34,913 nt of DNA from Lysobacteraceae bacterium (GTDB lineage Bacteria > Pseudomonadota > Gammaproteobacteria > Xanthomonadales > Rhodanobacteraceae): contig JAGWPB010000030.1 in the NCBI GenBank assembly GCA_028870665.1, positions 1-34,913 on the forward strand. The letters are read 5' to 3'. The notes beneath the pieces were generated by a model. It did no database searches. It had not been told where the DNA came from and saw only the letters and a program-made list of their open reading frames with translations. Shown here one piece after another: positions 23,467 to 34,448 of this stretch; the first letter of the stretch is position 1, and each line of letters opens with the position of its first letter. Both the position numbers and the translations under genes were made by a program.

Positions 23467-24078
23467 ATGATCGAGATCAGCGCGCGCGCGCAGGCCCATT
23501 TCCGGCACTTGCTGGCCACCCAGGGCGGGCCGGGCTGGGGGGTGCGCATCCGTGCCCGCGACGGCGGTACGCCGCGAGGCGAATGCGAATTGGCGTTCTG
23601 CGAGCCCGGCGACATCGACGGCGGCGAGGTGGTGGTCGCGTGCGACGGCTTCAGCGTCTACGTGGATGGCTCCAGCGCGCGCTGGTTCGAGGGCGCCGCG
23701 ATCGATTACGACGAGACGGCCACCGGCGGCGAACTGGCCGTGCGTGCACCGCACCTGCGCAGCGCCCCGCCGCCTGCTGACGCCGGACTGGTCGAGCAGG
23801 TGCAGTACGTCCTCGAGACCGAGATCAACCCGGCGCTGGCTGCGCATCGCGGGCACGTCAGCCTGAGCCGGATCGAGGACGACGGCACCGTGGTCCTGCA
23901 GTTCGGTGGCGGCTGCCACGGCTGCGGGGCGGTGGACATCACGCTGCGCCAGGGTGTCGAGCGCACCCTGCGCGAGCGCGTCGCGGGCGTGACCGGAGTT
24001 CGCGACGCGACCGACCACAGTCGCGGCGAAGATCCCTATTACCGCGGTGACAAGGGCGCCTCGGCGCTGGGCGGCTGA
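23467..24078 (+). CDS. nfuA: Fe-S cluster carrier NfuA
   Basis: The product has 203 residues. The N-terminal part (1-95) is a degenerate A-type carrier domain (SARAQAHFRHLLATQ, with the usual cysteines not all kept). The C-terminal NifU domain carries the cluster-binding pair C150/C153 in GGGCHGCGAVDITL. NfuA passes [4Fe-4S] clusters to target enzymes, for example aconitase or lipoate synthase, mainly under oxidative stress or iron shortage. GAGGTGA before the ATG at 23467 is a good ribosome-binding site. Plausible clients in this window include UbiU, UbiV and RlmN. Confidence 0.94.
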   Translation: MIEISARAQAHFRHLLATQGGPGWGVRIRARDGGTPRGECELAFCEPGDIDGGEVVVACDGFSVYVDGSSARWFEGAAIDYDETATGGELAVRAPHLRSAPPPADAGLVEQVQYVLETEINPALAAHRGHVSLSRIEDDGTVVLQFGGGCHGCGAVDITLRQGVERTLRERVAGVTGVRDATDHSRGEDPYYRGDKGASALGG

Positions 24079-29364: not shown

Positions 29365-29814
29365 ATGCAGCTTCGTCGCAGCGCCATCGCCGTTTCCCTG
29401 CTCGTTCTCTCGATCGCCGCGCAGGCACAGGCTCCGGCTGCGCCGGTCGGCCCGCCGATCAACCCCAATGCGCTGCACGTGGCGCTCAGCTCGCTGCTGC
29501 TGGCCTCGGTCAAGGCGTCGGTCGCCAACGCCATGATCGCCAACGGCAGGGCTCCGGCCAGCAACGCGGCCGCCAAGGTCGGTGCGCCCGACTACCTCAC
29601 CAGCAACGAGATCAGCCATATCGTGGTCGGCGCCGGCGGCGTGCTGAACGTCGGTTTCACCGGTGCCGTGAGCCCCGACGCGGTCGCTGTGACGCTGACA
29701 CCGAAGCTCGATGCCGGCCGCCGCTCGGTCAGCTGGAGCTGTGTCAGCAGCAGCATCCCCGAGATCGCCAAGGTCGAGTCCGAGTGCCGTTACGTGCCGG
29801 CGGCGGGCCACTGA
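29365..29814 (+). CDS. Secreted protein with type IV pilin-like C-terminal domain
   Basis: The protein has 149 residues. The N-terminus is a plain Sec signal peptide (MQLRRSAIAVSLLVLSIAAQAQA, cleavage after an AQA). It is not a prepilin leader: there is no Gly-Phe-Thr-Leu-Ile-Glu. From about residue 48 the sequence looks like the globular half of a type IVa pilin: VKASVANAMIANGRAP, DYLTSNEISHIVVGAGG, VTLTPKLDAGRRSVSWSC, then a C-terminal cysteine in SECR that should form the pilin disulfide loop. So a pilin head seems to have been placed on a secretory signal. GAGG lies 8 bases before the ATG, and gcdH is 9 bases upstream. Confidence 0.75.
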   Translation: MQLRRSAIAVSLLVLSIAAQAQAPAAPVGPPINPNALHVALSSLLLASVKASVANAMIANGRAPASNAAAKVGAPDYLTSNEISHIVVGAGGVLNVGFTGAVSPDAVAVTLTPKLDAGRRSVSWSCVSSSIPEIAKVESECRYVPAAGH

Positions 29815-29844: not shown

Positions 29845-29858
29845 TTGATCCAGGACAA
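29845..29858 (+). promoter_or_regulatory. FNR/Anr-like box before ubiT
   Basis: TTGAT-CCAG-GACAA keeps the first half of the FNR consensus (TTGAT-N4-ATCAA) perfectly and three of five bases of the second. Its centre (29851.5) lies 41.5 bases before the start predicted from TATCAA at 29881-29886 (+1 at 29893). This is exactly the class II activator position. The GGAGG at 29893-29897 serves ubiT. Confidence 0.6.
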
Positions 29859-29905: not shown

Positions 29906-30793
29906 ATGTCGCTTGTCTTGCCGTTGCCCCCCGCGGGCCATCGTTTCCTGATCGATCGGATCGATGACGCCCTGATCGACGGACTCGCGCTGCGTCAGCG
30001 CATCGTAGCGTCGCTGACCGCGCGCAAGCAGCGCGACGGCTTGCCGTTGCGCGACCCCGCCCGCGAGGAGCAGGTGCAGGAGCGCGCGCGCCGGCGCGCG
30101 GCGCGGCGGCATCTCGATCCTGCCGACGGCGAGCGGCTGATGCGCACGGCGATCGACTGCGCGCTGGCGCAGCAGCAGCGCACGGGCGCGGCGGCGGCAT
30201 CCGCCGCGGACCGGACGTCGGCGTTCGCGGACGCCTGGCGCCAGCGCCTGCTGGGCCTGCTGCCGCCACCGCAGCGTCTGGCACTGCCGCTGCGGGCCGT
30301 GCCCGACGTCTGGCAGCGGCGGCTTCTGGAGGCGGTCACCCAGAGCGTGCTGCAGGCGCCGCTGCGGGCCGGCAAGCTGGCGTTCCTGGTCGATCGCCGC
30401 ATCGCCATCGAGGTGACCGACCTTGATCTGCGCTGGGTGCTGACCGCGCAGGCCGATCGCCTGCGCACCTGCGAACGCAGCGCCCCGGCCGCAGCGGCCG
30501 TGCGCGGGCGCGCGCTGGAGTTCCTGCTGCTGGCCAGTCGCCTCGAGGACGCCGATACGCTGTTTTTCCAGCGTCGCCTGGCGCTGACCGGCGACACCGA
30601 ACTGGGTTTGACCGCGCGCAACCTGCTCGATCAGCTGCCCTGGGAGTCGATCCCGCTCGCGCTGCGCATCGCACTGCATCGCGCCGCACGTTTCGCCGCC
30701 GTCGCGCGCGATGCCCACGCCGCGCGCAGGGCGCCCGCTGCGGTCGCGCTCACGCGGGTGCCTGAACCGGTGTCGCGACTTCCGCTGCCCTAA
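29906..30793 (+). CDS. ubiT: Chorismate mutase (AroQ) - UbiT (SCP2) fusion protein
   Basis: The protein has 295 residues and two domains. Residues 12-92 align without gaps to the E. coli AroQ chorismate mutase domain as I remember it. R13, R30, K41, D50, R53, E54 and Q90 match catalytic R11, R28, K39, D48, R51, E52 and Q88; only S84 becomes A86. After a linker, residues about 120-275 form the UbiT SCP2 domain, with DTLFFQRRL (217-225) and GDTELGL (229-235) as in E. coli YhbT. UbiT binds ubiquinone precursors in the oxygen-independent pathway. ubiV and ubiU lie next to it, convergent. I am sure of both domains; the joint role is inference. Confidence 0.88.
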   Translation: MSLVLPLPPAGHRFLIDRIDDALIDGLALRQRIVASLTARKQRDGLPLRDPAREEQVQERARRRAARRHLDPADGERLMRTAIDCALAQQQRTGAAAASAADRTSAFADAWRQRLLGLLPPPQRLALPLRAVPDVWQRRLLEAVTQSVLQAPLRAGKLAFLVDRRIAIEVTDLDLRWVLTAQADRLRTCERSAPAAAAVRGRALEFLLLASRLEDADTLFFQRRLALTGDTELGLTARNLLDQLPWESIPLALRIALHRAARFAAVARDAHAARRAPAAVALTRVPEPVSRLPLP

Positions 30794-30981: not shown

Positions 30982-31899
30982 TCAGCGCGCGGCGAGGGGT
31001 GCCCCCGGGCGCTGGCGCAGCGGGTCTTGATGGGGCGGTCCCGCTGAGCGCATGCCGGCCTCGCCGTGCCAGTAGCCGTTGCAATCGCCGCGGCGCTGCG
31101 TCGGCGGCTGCGCCAGCGCGGCGCGGAAATAGGCGACCGTGTCGGCCATGCCCTGCGGCTGCGGATACAGGCGCAGCAGGTTGACGCCGGCCGCGCGCAG
31201 CTGATCGATCTCGGGCGCCAGATCGCAGACGGCCTCGCTCTGCACCTGGATGCCGTTGATGCGCAGGAACGGCGCGCCTTCGCGCGTTGCCAGCGTCAGG
31301 CCCTCGGGATCGTCGAGGCAGCGGAAGGCGCAATCGTCCTTGGCGAGGTCGTGCGCGCGGGCGGTGAAGCAGCGCGCCGAGTAGGCCAGCGGCAGGCGGC
31401 CCCAGGCGATCAGCTCGATTTCCGGCAGCATGCCCGCATCCGCCGCCTGGCGGATCTCCGCGAGCTGCTCGCGGCCCTGCTCGACGCCGGGCACCCAGCG
31501 CGTCATGCCGGCCCGGCGCAGCAGCGCCAGCGCGCGCTGGTTGTAGAGGTTGACGCCGGGCCCGGCGACGAACGGCAGGCCGCGCTCGCGCAGCAGCTGC
31601 ACGGCGGACATGTCGTTGGCCTCGACCGCGAACTCGCCGTTGCCGACCAGGCGCTTCAGGCTGGCCAGCTCCGACTCGGCCTCGATCAGCGTCAGCGCCG
31701 ACAGCACCACTTCGCGTCCGGTCGCGGCCAGTTCGCGCGCCAGCGCCAGCCAGTCGCCGCCGCGCAGCTCGCGGCGCTTGCTGCACACGGTTTCACCGAG
31801 GTAGATCGCGTCCAGCGGCAGCTCCGCCATCGCGGCATAGAAATCGAGCACCTGCCGGCGCGGCCAGAAGTACTGCAAGGGTCCCAGGGTCAGGCGCAT
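30982..31899 (-). CDS. ubiV: Oxygen-independent ubiquinone hydroxylation factor UbiV (U32 peptidase family)
   Basis: The protein has 305 residues, starting MRLTLGPLQYFWPRRQV. The four [4Fe-4S] ligands are C39 and a later group with spacing 13 and 4 (SARC...DDCAFRC), as in E. coli UbiV (39, 180, 193, 197). It forms a heterodimer with UbiU and hydroxylates the ubiquinone ring without oxygen, with prephenate reported as oxygen donor in E. coli. The start at 31899 is eight bases after ubiU and agrees with the family; the longer frame upstream lies inside ubiU. The pair is one operon. Confidence 0.95.
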   Translation of the reverse strand: MRLTLGPLQYFWPRRQVLDFYAAMAELPLDAIYLGETVCSKRRELRGGDWLALARELAATGREVVLSALTLIEAESELASLKRLVGNGEFAVEANDMSAVQLLRERGLPFVAGPGVNLYNQRALALLRRAGMTRWVPGVEQGREQLAEIRQAADAGMLPEIELIAWGRLPLAYSARCFTARAHDLAKDDCAFRCLDDPEGLTLATREGAPFLRINGIQVQSEAVCDLAPEIDQLRAAGVNLLRLYPQPQGMADTVAYFRAALAQPPTQRRGDCNGYWHGEAGMRSAGPPHQDPLRQRPGAPLAAR

Positions 31900-31907
31900 G
31901 GGCGGAC

Positions 31908-32903
31908 TCAGTGCCAGGAACGGTGGTAGGGACCGAGGGTGGTCTGCGTGCCTTCGGCGACGCGCGCAAGCGCGGCCTGCCAGTCCGGCTCGACGCGGAA
32001 GCCGGCCGGATCGGACTGCACGCGGTCGATCGCGCGGCGCCAGACTGCGGCGACGGCGCCGACATAGGCCGGGCTGCGCTGGCGGCCCTCGATCTTGAGC
32101 GCGGCGATGCCGCAGGCGGCGAGGCGCGGCAACAGGTCCAGCGTGTTGAGGCTGGTCGGTTCTTCCAGCGCGTGGAAGGTTTCGCCGCGGACCAGGTAGC
32201 GGCCCTTGCACACGGTCGGATAGCCGGCCGCCTCACCATTGGCGAAGCGGTCGATCAGCACGTCGTTGAGACGCACGCTGCGGCCGTCCGCGGTTTCGTC
32301 CCAGCGCACGAATTTCGCCGGCGAGCAGACGCCGTGGCGGTTGGGCGAGGCGCCGGTGACGTAGCTCGACAGCTGGCAGCGACCCTCGACCATGATGCAC
32401 AGGCTGCCGAAGGCGAAGGTCTCCAGCGGCACCGGCGACTTCTCGGCCAGACGCTCGACCTGCTGCATCGCCAGCACCCGCGGCAGTACCGCGCGGCTGA
32501 TGCCGAACTCCTCGACGTAGAAGCGCAGCGCGGCGTGGGTGGTGGCCGAACTCTGTACCGACAGGTGCCGCGGCAGCGCGGGGTAGTGCCGTGCGGCATA
32601 GTCGAGGACCGCGAGCTCGGCGATGATCAGCGCGTCCACGGCCAGGTCCGCGGCGCGCTCCACCGCGGCTTCCCAGTGTCCGAGCTGCGCCGGGGTCGGG
32701 TAGGTATTGAGCGCGACGTAGATCTTGCGGCCGCGCGCGTGGGCATAGGCGATGCCGCTGCGCAGATCGGCCTCGTCGAAATTGAGGCCTGGGAACGCGC
32801 GCGCATTGGTGGCGTCACGGAAGCCCACGTACACCGCATCGGCGCCGTGATCCACGGCTGCCTGCAGCGAGGGCAGGCTCCCGGCGGGGCAGACGAGTTG
32901 CAT
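31908..32903 (-). CDS. ubiU: Oxygen-independent ubiquinone hydroxylation factor UbiU (U32 peptidase family)
   Basis: The protein has 331 residues, the length of E. coli UbiU. Its cysteines C169, C176, C193 and C232 sit at exactly the numbers given for the E. coli cluster ligands. MQLVCPAGSLPSLQAAVDHGADAVYVG opens the TIM-barrel U32 fold; the stretch SSYVTGASPNRHGVCSP and the following region hold the rest. It acts with UbiV in anaerobic hydroxylation of the quinone ring. AGGAGG stands 7 bases before the ATG at 32903. An FNR-like box lies in the end of ubiD, about 60 bases upstream. Confidence 0.96.
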   Translation of the reverse strand: MQLVCPAGSLPSLQAAVDHGADAVYVGFRDATNARAFPGLNFDEADLRSGIAYAHARGRKIYVALNTYPTPAQLGHWEAAVERAADLAVDALIIAELAVLDYAARHYPALPRHLSVQSSATTHAALRFYVEEFGISRAVLPRVLAMQQVERLAEKSPVPLETFAFGSLCIMVEGRCQLSSYVTGASPNRHGVCSPAKFVRWDETADGRSVRLNDVLIDRFANGEAAGYPTVCKGRYLVRGETFHALEEPTSLNTLDLLPRLAACGIAALKIEGRQRSPAYVGAVAAVWRRAIDRVQSDPAGFRVEPDWQAALARVAEGTQTTLGPYHRSWH

Positions 32904-32960: not shown

Positions 32961-34448
32961 TCACTGATCTGGGTCAGACGCGGTGCCGAACGTCTGCGTC
33001 CACAACGCATCGACGCGGCGTTCGACGGCGGGATCGGACCGGATCGGCCGGCCCCAGGTGCGCGTGGTCTCGCCCGGCCACTTGCTGGTGGCGTCGATGC
33101 CGAGCTTGCCGCCGAGGTGGGGCTGCGGGCTGGCGAAGTCGAGGTAGTCCACCGGCGTGTTTTCGGTGATCAGGCAGTCGCGTGCCGGATCCACCCGCGT
33201 CGACAGCGCCCACAGCACGTCGTCCCAGTTGCGTACATCGATGTCGTCGTCGGTGATGATCACGAACTTGGTGTAGGTGAACTGGCGCAGGTACGACCAG
33301 ACCGCGAACATCATGCGCCGCGCGTGGCCCGGATAGCGCTTGCGGATGCTGACCACGGCGAGGCGATAGGAGCACGCCGCCGCGGGCAGGTAGAAATCGA
33401 CGACCTCGGGAAAGATCCGGCGCAGGATCGGCACGAACAGGTCGTTCAGCGCCATCGCCAGCATCGATGGCTCGTCGTGCGGCGAGCGCCCCATCCAGCT
33501 GCCCTGGTAGATCGCGTCCTCGCGCCGGCAGATGCGCTCGATGGTGAACACCGGAAAGCGGTCGACCGCGTTGTAGTAGCCGGTGTGATCGCCGAACGGC
33601 CCCTCCAGCGCGCTGTCACCGGGCTGGATGTGGCCCTCGAGCACGATCTCGGCGCCGGCCGGCAGGTCCAGCCCGGTCAGACGGCTGCGCAGCACGTGCC
33701 CGCGCGCGCCGCGCAGCAGGCCCGCGAACTCGAATTCCGAGAGGGTGTCCGGCAGCGGCGCCACCGCCGCCAGCGTGGTCGCCGGGTCGGCGCCGATCGC
33801 GACCGCCAGCGGGAATGGTTCGCGCGGATGCAGCTCGCACCACTCGGCGTAGTCCTGGGCACCGCCGCGATGCGCCAGCCAGCGCATGATCACGCGGTTG
33901 CGGCCGATTACCTGCATGCGGTAAATGCCGATGTTCTGGCGGTCCAGCCGCTGGCTGCGCGTGATCACCAGACCCAGCGTGACCAGCGGGCCGGCGTCCT
34001 CGGGCCAGCAGGTCTGGATCGGCAGCTCGCCGAGATCGACCTCCTCGCCCTGCCGGCAGTCGGCGAGGAACGCTGCCGTGGTGACCGTGCGCGGTGCCAC
34101 CAGCGCCAGCTGGCCGTAGGCGGGCAGGGCCGACACGGCTTCGCGCAGCGAGCCCGGCCAGCGCGGCTCCTTGAGCGCGGCGAGCAGTTCGCCCAGTTCG
34201 CGCATCGTGGCCACCGGACGGCGCCCCAGCGCCAGCTGGATGCGCTCGGCGCTGCCGAACACATTGCCGAGAAAGCGGTGCCTGCTCGCGCCGGCGCGTT
34301 CGAACAGCAGGGCGGGGCCGGCGCTGCGCTGCGCGCGCTGGCAAAACGTGGTGATTTCGAGATGCGGGTCCACCGTCGCGCCGACCCGGCGCAGCTCGCC
34401 GCGTGCTTCCAGCGCCTCGATGAACTCGCGCAGATCGTGATAACTCAT
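32961..34448 (-). CDS. ubiD: 4-hydroxy-3-polyprenylbenzoate decarboxylase UbiD
   Basis: The enzyme has 495 residues, close to the 497 of E. coli UbiD. It decarboxylates 4-hydroxy-3-polyprenylbenzoate with prenylated FMN made by UbiX (not in the window). Landmarks are [22 protein letters not shown] at the start and the prFMN-binding middle, with [16 protein letters not shown] and the [11 protein letters not shown] loop with its catalytic acidic residue. [17 protein letters not shown] and [15 protein letters not shown] follow at the end. The start at 34448 is the family start. It lies 57 bases upstream of ubiU on the same strand, so ubiD-ubiU-ubiV may be one transcript with an internal promoter. 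Confidence 0.96.
32964..32977 (-). promoter_or_regulatory. FNR-like box in the end of ubiD, before ubiU
   Basis: CTGAT-CTGG-GTCAG is a near-palindrome similar to the FNR consensus with the outer bases changed. Its centre is 67 bases before the ubiU ATG. A class II start would be near 32929, with CACGCT at 32941-32936 as a weak -10. As it lies in the ubiD codons, the resemblance could be partly chance. Confidence 0.35.

Follow-up and report, generated by a model that had tools for sequence, protein, structure and literature searches.

An AroQ-type chorismate mutase (CM) domain joined to UbiT is encoded in the genome of a Lysobacteraceae bacterium (GCA_028870665.1), and we propose that the protein is probably a UbiT with a built-in CM, which would make the oxygen donor prephenate at the UbiTUV complex and channel it there. 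The gene lies in the window, i.e., the whole 34,913-nt stretch of DNA that was analyzed (contig JAGWPB010000030.1, positions 1 to 34,913). Prephenate is given as the source of the hydroxyl oxygen in anaerobic ubiquinone in the available part of a review (PMC11574389, citing Ferizhendi et al. PNAS 2024), as a first-pass annotation of the window had also stated, and the same text notes that U32 catalysis still lacks a direct demonstration. As an oxygen donor, prephenate is a recent and unusual claim, for which the fusion, together with the CM genes that we found beside ubiT, offers independent genomic support. The claim reportedly draws on genetic work in E. coli together with 18O labelling. Judged by titles and opening lines of abstracts, no paper found in the open-licence PMC literature is about an AroQ-UbiT fusion, in line with the first reading, which knew of none.

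Architecture and conservation of the fusion

The fusion gene (29906..30793 on the + strand, stop codon included) is a single ATG-started ORF of 295 a.a. with two domain matches. The AroQ-type CM domain (residues 13–92; 29942..30181, +) was recognized by Pfam CM_2, by an ungapped alignment to the E. coli CM (1ecm), and by a fold match to 1ecm_B. The CM_2 match spans residues 15–91 (49.4 bits, E 5.3e-13; gathering threshold 27) and covers positions 4–80 of the 80 in the profile, which is the whole domain, as the AroQ assignment demands. A linker (residues 93–113; 30182..30244, +) leads to the UbiT part (residues 114–275; 30245..30730, +), identified by the NCBIfam UbiT equivalog NF047962 (residues 129–247, 126.7 bits against a cut-off of 46.9, E 6e-37), by Pfam SCP2 (residues 151–242, 48.5 bits, E 1.2e-12; gathering threshold 21.3), and by a UbiJ-SCP2 fold match, with the Pfam match to the SCP2 lipid-binding fold at 30356-30631 (+). 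No named NCBIfam CM subfamily was reached by the fusion (best 40.5 bits, cut-off 120), the NCBIfam isochorismate lyase (PchB) model scored 12.3 bits against a cut-off of 126, and PF04345 (UbiC) was absent among the Pfam matches of the protein.

The phmmer alignment of fusion residues 13–91 to residues 11–89 of 1ecm is gap-free, this pair being by itself not significant (E 0.24) and the best single chain being 3rmi (E 9.6e-5). Counted along this alignment, R13, R30, K41, D50, R53, E54, and Q90 correspond to E. coli R11, R28, K39, D48, R51, E52, and Q88, and A86 stands at S84, so that seven of the eight residues that we take to be the catalytic set of the E. coli enzyme (R11, R28, K39, D48, R51, E52, S84, and Q88) are kept. 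The first-pass annotation had described just this, a complete AroQ domain ungapped against that of E. coli, with seven catalytic positions retained and the serine alone changed, followed by UbiT; each of these points was confirmed.

The 82 fused ORFs collected, many of them redundant, were reduced to 57 distinct sequences and then to 39 below 80% identity. R13, R30, K41, R53, and E54 occur in all 39, while D50 and Q90 occur in 38, and the seven residues take ranks 1 and 4–9 by conservation among 84 CM positions, an outcome matched in none of 200,000 random draws. The remaining two of the nine top ranks belong to D17 and D20, which are likewise invariant. Ala occupies position 86 in 35 of the fusions, with Gly found there in three and Ser in one.

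An AlphaFold2 model built from the 39 aligned fusions (pLDDT 88.5, pTM 0.68) predicts the three AroQ helices (residues 9–43, 51–67, and 72–97) and the SCP2 fold. The top Foldseek match of this model was UbiJ-SCP2 (E 9.3e-6), with the CM matches being weaker (3rmi, E 8.8e-3; 1ecm_B, E 1.4e-2), and superposition on 1ecm_B gave an rmsd of 1.1 Å over 86 columns at 28% identity (TM 0.85 by target length). Phylogenetically, the fused CMs group in a single clade that excludes PheA and TyrA (99/97) and takes in the CM of Arenimonas daejeonensis L057, which is split from its UbiT, in a tree that has few columns, omits the L315 sequence, and leaves undecided whether fused and separate CMs have a common origin.

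Five same-genus pairs gave dN/dS values of 0.10–0.26 for CM and 0.12–0.19 for UbiT, with the linker at 0.94–1.62, i.e., about 1; the linker values rest on 17–21 codons, and the pair of the window with L009 is near saturation at silent sites. Judged by these ratios, the fusion is two constrained domains joined by a free linker, and across residues 93–129 of the window protein there is no in-frame ATG, GTG, or TTG. That two genes merely look fused here, through a frameshift or an assembly error, is barely conceivable. CM and UbiT do lie in two frames in A. daejeonensis L057, but the 57 distinct in-frame fusions and the neutral, start-less linker of the window rule out two genes read as one. The CM-UbiT ORF is one real gene and no artefact.

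Several known systems resemble the fusion in part. With known UbiT (YhbT; available sections of PMC6747719 and PMC10470549), it shares the SCP2 domain, the UbiT equivalog match, and the adjacent ubiU and ubiV genes; the known protein, unlike the fusion, is about 174–200 a.a. long, mostly SCP2, and described there without a CM domain. With the AroQ CMs of the E. coli P-protein (1ecm) and Bartonella (3rmi), it shares the fold, the ungapped alignment, and the active-site residues noted above; whereas AroQ domains elsewhere are partnered with prephenate dehydratase, prephenate dehydrogenase, or DAHP synthase, the partner here is SCP2 and the CM forms its own clade. A parallel in design is the ubiT-ubiU fusion of Zymomonas mobilis, the only fusion reported in the accessible text of PMC6747719, in which UbiT is likewise joined to a further component of anaerobic ubiquinone synthesis, although its partner is a hydroxylase subunit rather than an enzyme for the oxygen donor. 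Prephenate is also the proposed oxygen source in prephenate-dependent U32 hydroxylation (PMC11574389; NCBIfam NF011996, TrhP), for which, in contrast to the fusion, a dedicated mutase is not mentioned in the available part of that review.

Genomic neighbourhood and spread

Downstream of the fusion lie ubiV (30982..31899, −; NCBIfam quinone_UbiV, 348.8 bits, cut-off 275) and ubiU (31908..32903, −; quinone_UbiU, 532.5 bits, cut-off 440), both of the U32 family and the anaerobic hydroxylase genes that the first reading had placed next door. A ubiD-type decarboxylase gene (32961..34448, −; Pfam UbiD, UbiD_C, and UbiD_N) precedes ubiU in the same orientation. The gene starts were read from the ORFs, with the profile scans having begun at 31869 for ubiV and 34547 for ubiD. 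As ubiUV run in the opposite direction and meet the fusion tail to tail, they are not in one operon with it. Among 33 fused named loci, ubiU or ubiV occurs inside the fetched flanks in 28; no ubiUV was seen in the fetched flank of the other five, four of which are shorter than 8.5 kb, with the fifth (L056) having both 6-kb flanks. In several Rhodanobacter loci, ubiV is about 5 kb away from the fusion.

Upstream of the fusion, a FNR/ANR-like box (TTGATCCAGGACAA, 29845..29858, +; 8 of 10) starts 61 nt before the ATG, with identical letters in the close relatives L007 and L011 and a variant in L008. This box is suggestive only: 15 sites of the same score in the whole window rule it out as firm evidence, and the mononucleotide shuffle, with a mean of 1.44 sites, is too lenient as a control. 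The fusion may be induced without oxygen. In many distant fusions, in-frame ATGs occur close to the linker, before the UbiT part, and in three of them (L014, L015, and L018) FNR-like boxes lie within the linker, so a second, shorter product of free UbiT is possible there, and the linker in these three may hold an internal promoter or start for it.

Two other genes of the window are worth recording. A small protein (29365-29814, +), which matches Pfam Pilin weakly over residues 45–146 (34.4 bits), is encoded in the interval that separates the fusion from an acyl-CoA dehydrogenase gene, and further upstream a NifU-like plus Fe-S_biosyn protein (23467-24078, +) adjoins two cytochrome c genes.

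The fusion was found in 59 of 398 genomes drawn from the order of the window, Lysobacterales (Xanthomonadales), and UbiT alone in at least 38 further genomes of this draw. The domain pair, for which the first-pass annotation had proposed a search, recurs across genomes, with ubiU or ubiV in the fetched flanks of most, though not all, fused named loci. By family, and among the matches listed, the fusion occurs in 59 of 63 UbiT-bearing genomes of families f1–f4 and in none of the 34 of families f8, f9, f10, and f12; one of the 59 fused matches (G236) has an in-frame TGA. The window's own family (f1), which includes Rhodanobacter, Dyella, and Frateuria, also has four genomes (G331, G019, G207, and G306) in which UbiT is present and no nearby CM was found, among them Rhodanobacter sp. 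Root480 (L063) and Tahibacter aquaticus (L089), indicating that a genome may lack the domain or have lost it. Across 61 genomes (that of the window and 60 relatives), 16 carry full-length fusions and one more carries a fusion cut by a contig end. Bearers among the best 80 loci include Dyella, Rhodanobacter, Frateuria, Arenimonas, Lysobacter, Thermomonas, Pseudoxanthomonas, Rehaibacterium, and Stenotrophomonas nitritireducens. In A. daejeonensis (L057:5592-6477), the two frames that hold CM and UbiT overlap, and the profile match is interrupted within helix 3 of the CM.

Outside Lysobacterales, no fusion was seen in 369 genomes of the class (E 1e-20) or 398 genomes of the phylum (E 1e-15), draws that would miss weaker or very divergent fusions. 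Of the 89 genomes matched in the class draw, 3 have the fusion, 85 have UbiT only, and 1 has CM only; of the 72 matched in the phylum draw, 4 have the fusion, 62 have UbiT only, and 6 have CM only. All of these fusions belong to Lysobacterales.

Separate chorismate mutase genes beside ubiT

Up to 6 kb was fetched on each side of the 85 unfused class loci (about 919 kb in total, with some loci cut by contig ends), and in five of them (L184, L185, L186, L315, and L322) a CM ORF abuts the ubiT frame; no other CM was found in these 919 kb. Together with L242, L243, and L255, these loci, in which an AroQ-type CM adjoins ubiT in other gammaproteobacterial orders, are mostly divergent in arrangement. 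The order that holds G448, G694, and G588 had a CM match in 12 of 19 genomes, all 12 abutting or overlapping the ubiT frame, with the search for UbiT covering these 12. G556 and G641 lie outside this order, that of G556 having two genomes. Six separate CMs scored 52.9–75.2 bits with Pfam CM_2, which independently confirmed the three that had been used to train the CM search profile before being found by it.

The equivalents of R11, R28, K39, R51, and E52 are present in all 13 rows of separate CMs, with D48 and Q88 not being conserved; most of these proteins lack the equivalents of Gln88 and Asp48 and so may bind rather than convert, which would make them prephenate binders. The separate CM of G777 clusters with CM domains of the TyrA type (99/99), and its recruitment was probably independent. 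Of the eight loci that were read, the six with divergent genes carry a FNR-like box (8–10 of 10) in or close to the gap between ubiT and CM, and the two same-strand loci (L184 and L255) carry none; as five of these loci hold 4–11 such sites (≥8) per 12 kb, only the 9s and 10s weigh somewhat.

Proposed role and alternative readings

The fusion is predicted to be catalytically active, dimeric, and able to deliver its product locally. The SCP2 part would hold prenylated ubiquinone intermediates, as has been proposed for UbiT: in the available sections of PMC10470549, UbiT and UbiJ are proposed to serve separate complexes and to bind lipid intermediates. The AroQ part, which probably forms the intertwined dimer typical of such domains, would convert chorismate to prephenate beside the UbiU-UbiV hydroxylases, which would in turn draw on it as oxygen donor for as many as three hydroxylations of the ring. 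The fusion would thereby tie donor supply to the anaerobic complex, separate from the prephenate of PheA and TyrA. Prephenate made on the spot for UbiUV, an idea already put forward in the first-pass annotation, gains support because the catalytic set is conserved with CM and UbiT each under purifying selection, and because ubiU or ubiV is near most fused loci and CM genes stand beside ubiT in other orders. A plain UbiT suffices for anaerobic ubiquinone synthesis in E. coli, so there is no general need for the CM domain, which counts against prephenate supply as its role, as do the missing Gln88 equivalent in most separate CMs and the four related UbiT genomes without CM. On balance, we lean towards the broader view that anaerobic ubiquinone synthesis has a dedicated supply of its oxygen donor, in which a UbiT-tied AroQ domain would make or hand over prephenate within UbiTUV, fused in Lysobacterales and adjacent or divergent in at least three other orders. 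The fusion offers a single protein for asking by what route prephenate gets to the hydroxylases and whether UbiT assembles with UbiU and UbiV into one complex.

The residues kept by the separate CMs bear on a different reading, in which the AroQ domain binds chorismate or prephenate with little turnover and acts as a sensor or hand-over site, gating UbiT-UbiUV by the supply of the shikimate pathway. The separate CMs, with their five invariant positions and variable D48 and Q88 equivalents, would fit such a binder; the fused domain, however, keeps Q90 and D50 in all but one of 39 sequences, which binding alone does not obviously demand, and we consider this reading unlikely for the fusion. AroQ domains are intertwined dimers, and the fold could mainly be a dimerisation module for UbiT, although the selection on the active-site residues speaks against this and the separate CM genes beside ubiT would be left unexplained, making it a quite improbable role.

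A lyase was also envisaged early on, turning chorismate into 4-hydroxybenzoate or acting like PchB on isochorismate. Bacteria make 4-hydroxybenzoate via UbiC or XanB2, according to the accessible text of PMC8854274, and UbiC (PF04345) was found neither in the window's genome (at E 0.001) nor in any of the 17 fusion genomes from the set of 61; moreover, neither UbiC nor a XanB2-type chorismatase (PF21168) was found in G008, a fused genome of the same genus that is 99% complete. Against this, a XanB2-type chorismatase occurs in 16 of the 17 fusion genomes, that of the window included, which weakens the 4-hydroxybenzoate proposal and rules it out as the main reading, and the isochorismate lyase model scored 12.3 bits as opposed to 40.5 for the best CM model. 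Lyase activity of either kind is thus very improbable, and local prephenate synthesis remains our preferred role.

Three CM_2 domains occur in the window's genome (2.6 Mb, 91.5% complete), namely in PheA (CM, prephenate dehydratase, and ACT), TyrA (CM and prephenate dehydrogenase), and the fusion, and the PheA and TyrA genes rule out the fusion as the sole chorismate mutase of the cell. The genome has two SCP2 domains, the second of which (L005) is on a contig without CM_2; no NCBIfam model matched its 96-a.a. stretch at E 1e-6. In three genomes of the same genus (G008, G010, and G011), a second CM gene lies about 1–6 kb from the fusion (e.g., L019:137-1510 and L046:11248-11715); that of G010 is a TyrA (CM-prephenate dehydrogenase), and that of G008 clusters with TyrA.
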